Shown here: one piece after another, positions 50,692 through 51,453 of the stretch | Position numbering within the stretch: the first letter of the stretch is position 1 | Layout: the number at the start of each line of letters is the position of its first letter | Assembly: GCF_012317385.1 (NCBI RefSeq) | Contig: NZ_CP051144.1 | Coordinates: 2,108,001-2,172,000, forward strand | Reading direction: 5' to 3' | Length of the DNA: 64,000 nt | Source of the DNA: Romboutsia sp. CE17 | GTDB lineage: Bacteria; Bacillota; Clostridia; Peptostreptococcales; Peptostreptococcaceae | Made by a program: the position numbers and the translations under genes | Notes under the pieces: model-generated | Database searches by the model: none | Told to the model about the DNA's origin: nothing | The model's input: the letters and a program-made list of their open reading frames with translations, nothing else

Positions 50692-51009
50692 ATGAAAGTA
50701 ACTTTAGACAAAAAAGCTACTATGGCTTTAAAAGATGTACTAAAAGATAAAAGTCCTGAAAGTAAAATAAGAATTTATTTTGCAGGCATTGGTTGAGGTG
50801 GGCCATCGTTTGGCCTTGCTCTGGATGAGCAAAAGAGTGATGACAAAGCTTATTCTGTAGATGGTATAAACTTTGTAATGAGTGAGAATGACTATATGCA
50901 ATATGGAGATATGTTTATAAGAGACACTGGATATGGATTTATGATAGCACCAGAAAATTCAAGTAGTGATGGTGGCTGTGGTGGAGGTTGCTCAGGCTGC
51001 GGACATTAA
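50692..51009 (+). CDS. HesB/IscA-like selenoprotein (in-frame UGA decoded as Sec)
   Basis: 105 codons, ATG at 50692 and TAA at 51007-51009, with a TGA at 50794-50796 (codon 35). Reading through gives IRIYFAGIG-U-GGPSFGLALDEQ, then VDGINFVMSENDYMQYGD and a tail SDGGCGGGCSGCGH. Sec falls where IscA/HesB proteins have their first metal-binding Cys (GGGCSG), and the Cys-rich tail matches the CGCG end. HesB-like selenoproteins are a reported family of unknown function. A SECIS-like hairpin starts 20 nt after the UGA. Both sides of the UGA align with the next gene, so it is not a chance stop. The organism must also have selA/B/C/D, which are not in this window. Confidence 0.88.
50816..50832 (+). 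promoter_or_regulatory. Bacterial SECIS-like hairpin
   Basis: Stem TTGCTC (50816-50821) / GAGCAA (50827-50832), loop TGGAT. The loop begins 25 nt after the UGA and has G at its second position, as the bacterial SECIS rules ask. A second small hairpin (GGCCA/TGGCC, 50801-50815) lies between it and the UGA. Confidence 0.7.
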
Positions 51010-51024
51010 GAAAGGATATTATTA

Positions 51025-51345
51025 ATGATTGCAATAGACGAAAAATCTCTTTTATCAATAAAAAATAAACTTAAAAGTAACAATCAACAAGGAGAAAACA
51101 TCAGAATTTACTTCTCTGGAGTCGGTGCTGATGGGCCTATATTCGATATAACTACAGATAATAAAAAAAGTGATGACTTAATATACCACATAGATGGTAT
51201 GACTGTCTTAGTTAATGAGTACGAATATATGCAATATGGAGATTTTAGGATAAACACTGACAACAGTAATCACATTAATATAAAATCAGAAAATATGGAG
51301 CTAGGTATGTGTTGTGGGCAAGGGTGCCCTGACTGTCCATATTAA
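51025..51345 (+). CDS. HesB/IscA-like protein, non-Sec paralogue
   Basis: 106 residues, 15 nt downstream of the selenoprotein gene, with AAAGGA ahead of the ATG. It aligns along its whole length: NIRIYFSGVGADGPIFDIT against KIRIYFAGIGUGGPSFGLA, and VNEYEYMQYGDF against MSENDYMQYGDM. Ala35 stands exactly at the Sec position. The tail has different cysteines (MCCGQGCPDCPY). The pair is presumably one operon, and the products could form a heteromer in which only one partner carries the reactive selenol. The function is unknown. Confidence 0.85.
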   Translation: MIAIDEKSLLSIKNKLKSNNQQGENIRIYFSGVGADGPIFDITTDNKKSDDLIYHIDGMTVLVNEYEYMQYGDFRINTDNSNHINIKSENMELGMCCGQGCPDCPY

Positions 51346-51402: not shown

Positions 51403-51453
51403 GATAGGTTGTCAGTACAAAAGTGTAAAACATAATGTTACTGACAACCTATC
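51403..51453. terminator. Bidirectional terminator
   Basis: Perfect 15-bp stem, 51403-51417 (GATAGGTTGTCAGTA) with 51439-51453, between the HesB operon and the convergent lipoprotein gene. The loop is AT-rich, 21 nt. Confidence 0.85.

Follow-up and report, generated by a model that had tools for sequence, protein, structure and literature searches.

A divergent HesB-like selenoprotein gene with a UGA-specific hairpin and an alanine-bearing tandem paralogue in Romboutsia sp. CE17

A short frame interrupted by a single TGA in the genome of Romboutsia sp. CE17 raises the question of whether the locus encodes a selenoprotein or a gene cut off at a stop codon. The frame occupies 50692-51009 on the forward strand of the window, by which we mean the whole 64-kb stretch of DNA that was analysed (positions 2108001-2172000 of a genome consisting of one 3.117-Mb contig). 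It starts with ATG, ends with TAA and spans 105 codons, of which codon 35 (50794-50796) is the in-frame TGA. With this codon read as selenocysteine (Sec), the 105-residue product is MKVTLDKKATMALKDVLKDKSPESKIRIYFAGIGUGGPSFGLALDEQKSDDKAYSVDGINFVMSENDYMQYGDMFIRDTGYGFMIAPENSSSDGGCGGGCSGCGH; it carries the Sec within GUGGPSFG and closes with an intact Cys-rich tail (50971-51006; GGCGGGCSGCGH, ending CGGGCSGCGH). The family motif UxGP is present as UGGP at codons 35-38, at the conserved Cys column of HesB proteins. The original prediction had proposed a HesB/IscA-like selenoprotein on the strength of the lone TGA, the Cys-rich tail and a similarity to the neighbouring gene that continues on both sides of the UGA. 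All three were seen, the neighbour at 51025-51345 (+) being a paralogue that aligns over its full length at 39% identity, and the sequence evidence assembled below supports that interpretation, indicating a real selenoprotein gene. A HesB-like selenoprotein with Sec decoding on an A-type scaffold is very probably the best explanation of the locus overall.

The closest profile models of the product are NF038090 (E 4e-18, 65.6 bits, below the cut-off of 85) and TIGR01911 (E 2.1e-13, 50.7 bits, below the cut-off of 66.35), and its close Sec-containing relatives also score under these cut-offs. Both are curated NCBI models of the family, and since the protein reaches neither threshold, the warning in the original prediction that gene callers will miss or truncate the gene is plausible. 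We assign the gene to the HesB-like selenoprotein family with high confidence, as a new, divergent member of the known group described by TIGR01911 and NF038090. It shares with that group the UxGP motif, placed where the first ligand Cys is found, a small A-type protein, an alternation of Sec and Cys forms and a bacterial SECIS directly after the UGA, but differs in falling below both cut-offs, in its CGGGCSGCGH tail and in having an Ala-bearing tandem paralogue. The family, which the original prediction correctly took to be a reported one, has been known since the mid-2000s. HesB-like selenoproteins appear in early surveys of bacterial selenoproteomes, where conversions of Sec to Cys with a remnant SECIS were also described (PMC1794560, including Fig. 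4), and their motif is given as UxGP (PMC13188914, Table 1). A 2016 survey counted 90 such proteins in 86 organisms, which places them among the commoner bacterial selenoproteins (PMC5029168). In Methanococcus maripaludis, MMJJ_08070 was identified as a HesB-like selenoprotein by mutagenesis and 75Se labelling, its function being unclear, and nitrogen fixation was not impaired when the Methanococcus homologue was disrupted (an unpublished observation cited in PMC11097638). Our protein and MMJJ_08070 share the description as HesB-like selenoproteins, and the archaeal gene differs in the type and position of its SECIS.

If the UGA were a true stop, as TGA is in the standard code, the locus would be a pseudogene or would encode a 34-residue fragment, and the failure of the protein to reach the HMM cut-offs could be read in the same way. 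The relatives make this highly improbable. In our survey of 71 Peptostreptococcaceae genomes, 64 contained a HesB-like homologue, and the majority of the best homologues had one TGA at the same codon, the others having none. Across 80 named GTDB loci (Romboutsia, Paraclostridium, Clostridioides, Peptostreptococcus, Tissierellia, Caloramator, some Desulfobacteraceae and others) the column could be read as Sec in 59 copies and as Cys in 26. Relatives thus carry either UGA or Cys at this position and then continue, where a true stop would have homologues ending. Compared with six Sec-containing relatives, the gene is 64-71% identical after the UGA and 47-62% identical before it, with pN values of 0.17-0.22 and 0.25-0.36, respectively, so that purifying selection acts on the 70 downstream codons no less strongly than on the upstream part. 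The 3' part of the gene is, on these comparisons, kept as protein and not decaying. The UGA is moreover retained at the exact codon in many genera, nearly always together with the hairpin described below, and the genome holds a complete Sec machinery. We rejected the pseudogene reading on the grounds of the selection after the UGA and the conservation of the UGA itself.

Several genomes, e.g., those of Romboutsia timonensis, Clostridium sp. CCUG 7971 and Peptacetobacter hominis, carry Sec and Cys copies as tandem pairs. Clostridioides difficile has a Cys form, consistent with the published list of six selenoproteins for this species, in which no HesB-like protein is included (PMC1794560). One Desulfobacteraceae homologue (L163:5004-5318) has, when read through, a second UGA at the end of its Cys-rich tail (CCSU), which may be its stop or a second Sec. 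No relative was found in viral contigs, and a viral origin was rejected.

The original prediction also called for selA, selB, selC and selD in the genome, and selA, selB, selD and a tRNA-Sec with anticodon UCA (67.9 bits against the Rfam tRNA-Sec model) were all found. The genes selD, selA and selB lie consecutively in one cluster (L017), with selB scoring 353 bits (cut-off 242) and selD having its own in-frame UGA, within SGGUAAKI. An fdhA with one TGA scores above its cut-off, which brings the UGA-containing genes that belong to known selenoprotein families to at least three in this genome. Glycine reductase was considered as a further Sec client and rejected, GrdB being absent from the genome in a search whose control worked in relatives; GrdA and PrdB were likewise not found there, in a search that had no positive control.

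The predicted 6-bp hairpin, which we take as the apical stem-loop of a bacterial SECIS, lies at 50816-50832 (+), with the stem TTGCTC/GAGCAA closing the loop TGGAT, 19 nt from the UGA to the stem and 25 nt from the UGA to the loop. No other exact 6-bp stem enclosing a TGGAT loop occurs in the 64-kb window, whichever strand is read. The hairpin overlaps the conserved ALDE codons, and conservation of the protein alone could therefore yield it, for which reason we compared Sec and Cys genes with synonymous recodings drawn from the codon usage of the group. Among the Sec genes, 33 of 36 fold better than their recodings (p<0.05; mean z -3.58), whereas none of the 27 Cys genes does (mean z 0.09); the window gene itself gives z -3.17 (p 0.017). 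For the Leu codon, 29 of 34 Sec genes have CTG, compared with none of the 27 Cys genes, where TTA, CTA, CTT or TTG is found instead. In the stem, 91% of cells are paired, compared with 83.8% in shuffles, and the covariation score is 0.150 compared with 0.088, with 9 cells altered on both sides; sliding the stem partners lowers the score. The hairpin is family-wide, covarying and specific to UGA-bearing genes, and the synonymous recoding together with the Cys controls excludes its being a by-product of the conserved ALDE motif. This contrast offers a sharp test for further members that fall below the cut-offs of the present models.

A covariance model from which the window sequence was left out matched 50794-50841 at 54.5 bits (E 1.9e-9), in agreement with the SECIS-like element predicted there. 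The next-best match in the window was the Ala paralogue (15.4 bits), and the sole other match in the whole genome was a Cys paralogue at 29.1 bits, a score that we take to reflect mostly the sequence similarity of homologous codons. A scan of the window at Rfam gathering scores gave no match, which is uninformative because the Rfam SECIS family is of the eukaryotic type. Some relatives depart from this hairpin. Three Peptacetobacter-type Sec genes (L079, L081 and L085) apparently use another stem, TGGTCTA-GCTT-TAGATCA, at the same place and with a G-led loop. A subgroup of Sec-containing HesB-like genes (L098, L099 and L101-L105; AUYGPIFNVALDE ... DEYHYSDWAKPW) does not have the Cys tail, and its SECIS stem is bulged, with compensatory changes (GTAG.CTAC, GTAA.TTAC).

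Insertion of tryptophan by its tRNA, or some other near-cognate readthrough of the UGA in place of Sec, is vanishingly unlikely and was rejected: while L196, a distant relative in a different subgroup, reads TGG in the corresponding column, the 27 distinct non-UGA relatives tested from the gene's own subgroup all have Cys there, the Ala paralogue aside, and the SECIS hairpin is UGA-specific. On the sequence evidence, UGA codon 35 is almost certainly decoded as Sec by the SelA, SelB, SelD and tRNA-Sec of this genome, guided by the downstream hairpin.

What the Sec might do is suggested by the predicted fold. An AlphaFold2 model built with 39 relatives had a pLDDT of 84.7, with the tail predicted to be disordered and presumably flexible (pLDDT <50), and a structure search with this model returned SufA (2d2a, E 1.3e-5) and IscA (1r94, E 2.4e-5) as the top matches, with ∼20% of residues identical when the proteins are aligned by structure. 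By sequence, the similarity to IscA is weak (TIGR02011, E 4e-4; Pfam Fe-S_biosyn below cut-off). In sequence alignments, U35 falls on the first Cys of both HI1723 and AQ_1857, where IscA has its first ligand, so that the placement of the UGA at the first cluster-binding Cys, part of the original prediction, holds for the column shared with IscA/ErpA-type proteins. The protein thus resembles IscA, SufA and ErpA in its modelled A-type fold, in having Sec at the column of the first ligand Cys and in its Cys-rich C terminus. It departs from the IscA-type ligand set, in which three Cys residues are used and the second and third form a CxC close to the C terminus, in that the first is Sec and the tail is spaced differently (CGGGCSGC). 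Our hypothesis is that the product would be an A-type scaffold of the IscA/SufA/ErpA kind, with Sec standing in for the first Cys that binds a cluster or metal and acting together with Cys of the C-terminal tail, and that its role in this anaerobe could be that of an iron- or Fe-S-binding carrier or of a selenenylsulfide redox switch. For metal or Fe-S binding through the Sec we see an even chance.

The main rival to ligation of iron or a cluster by Sec is a Sec-Cys redox pair, in which the selenol would form a selenenylsulfide with a tail Cys on the A-type scaffold and would be recycled by a thioredoxin-fold partner such as glutaredoxin. We regard this as possible, if somewhat improbable. One tail Cys column is invariant in the 39 aligned relatives, and short-tail sister forms retain one tail Cys only, which suits a U-C pair over a three-ligand site; in Tissierellia loci, the second gene upstream of the Sec gene encodes a glutaredoxin. 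The protein has, however, no CxxU or UxxC motif, its fold and Sec column match a metal or cluster ligand of IscA, and glutaredoxin is not the adjoining gene in the window's own family.

Gene neighbourhoods did not indicate one pathway, and we set aside an assignment of function from them. The window gene lies near MarR and ABC transporter genes, a LiaG-like DUF4097 gene and a lipoprotein gene, and these near neighbours do not recur beside the gene in the relatives compared. In several Romboutsia and Paraclostridium genomes the Sec gene is housed at the trmB locus, where the window genome has its Cys copy and not the window Sec copy. Tissierellia loci (L158, L162, L167, L178, L186 and others) share a conserved gene order of an ArsR-type regulator, ComFB-like, glutaredoxin, a 4-TM holin-like gene, HesB-Se and MgtE. 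No Fe-S partner was found at either the trmB locus of Peptostreptococcaceae or the glutaredoxin/MgtE locus of Tissierellia.

The tandem paralogue (51025-51345, +; TIGR01911 E 1.6e-15) starts 15 nt after the Sec gene and has Ala, not Cys, at the Sec column (GADGP), a feature absent from the original prediction. Its frame is intact, with the Cys-rich tail CCGQGCPDCPY and a ribosome-binding-site-like GAAAGGA, it has no SECIS-like hairpin, and it is probably co-transcribed with the Sec gene. Our tree places the window Sec gene with Paraclostridium Sec genes (support 95/69) and the Cys paralogue of the genome (L076, near 1.2 Mb) with other Cys genes; the place of the Ala copy is unsure because of its very long branch (1.43). 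The same structure search returned DsrR of Allochromatium vinosum (2k4z), also of A-type fold, which presumably lacks the ligand Cys residues and would therefore be a precedent for the Ala paralogue, although DsrR belongs with sulfur-oxidation genes and has no tandem Sec partner.

Residues other than Cys at the Sec column recur in a fourth HesB-like subgroup, which has FUCD or LUCD instead of UxGP. In three genomes from two genera (L193, L194 and L197) its members carry the UGA and the same hairpin in perfect form, while relatives have Leu (L195), Trp (L196) or Thr, His, Tyr or Phe (L198-L219) at the Sec column, and never Cys. Among 297 genomes from the order, a search for this subgroup gave matches in 28, all in Peptostreptococcaceae and at least one of them solely through another subgroup. 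The pairing of a Sec gene with an Ala partner, together with a subgroup that has no Cys form, leads us to raise the idea, unlikely as we judge it, that the Sec position of A-type proteins is not just that of a stronger Cys and that Sec has been gained or lost there against non-redox residues. If true, this would describe a selenoprotein lineage of that kind, known from only three Sec genes, and perhaps Sec/non-Sec hetero-oligomers with an asymmetric metal site. The Thr form also occurs in the window's own genome (L212, G000:C1:570444-570734), so that a single genome holds the scaffold in four versions (Sec, Cys, Ala and Thr), a natural set with which to test the contribution of Sec. A simple terminator scan reported nothing, despite an inverted repeat at 51403-51452 (GGTTGTCAGTA...TACTGACAACC) that follows the tandem pair and is possibly a bidirectional terminator.
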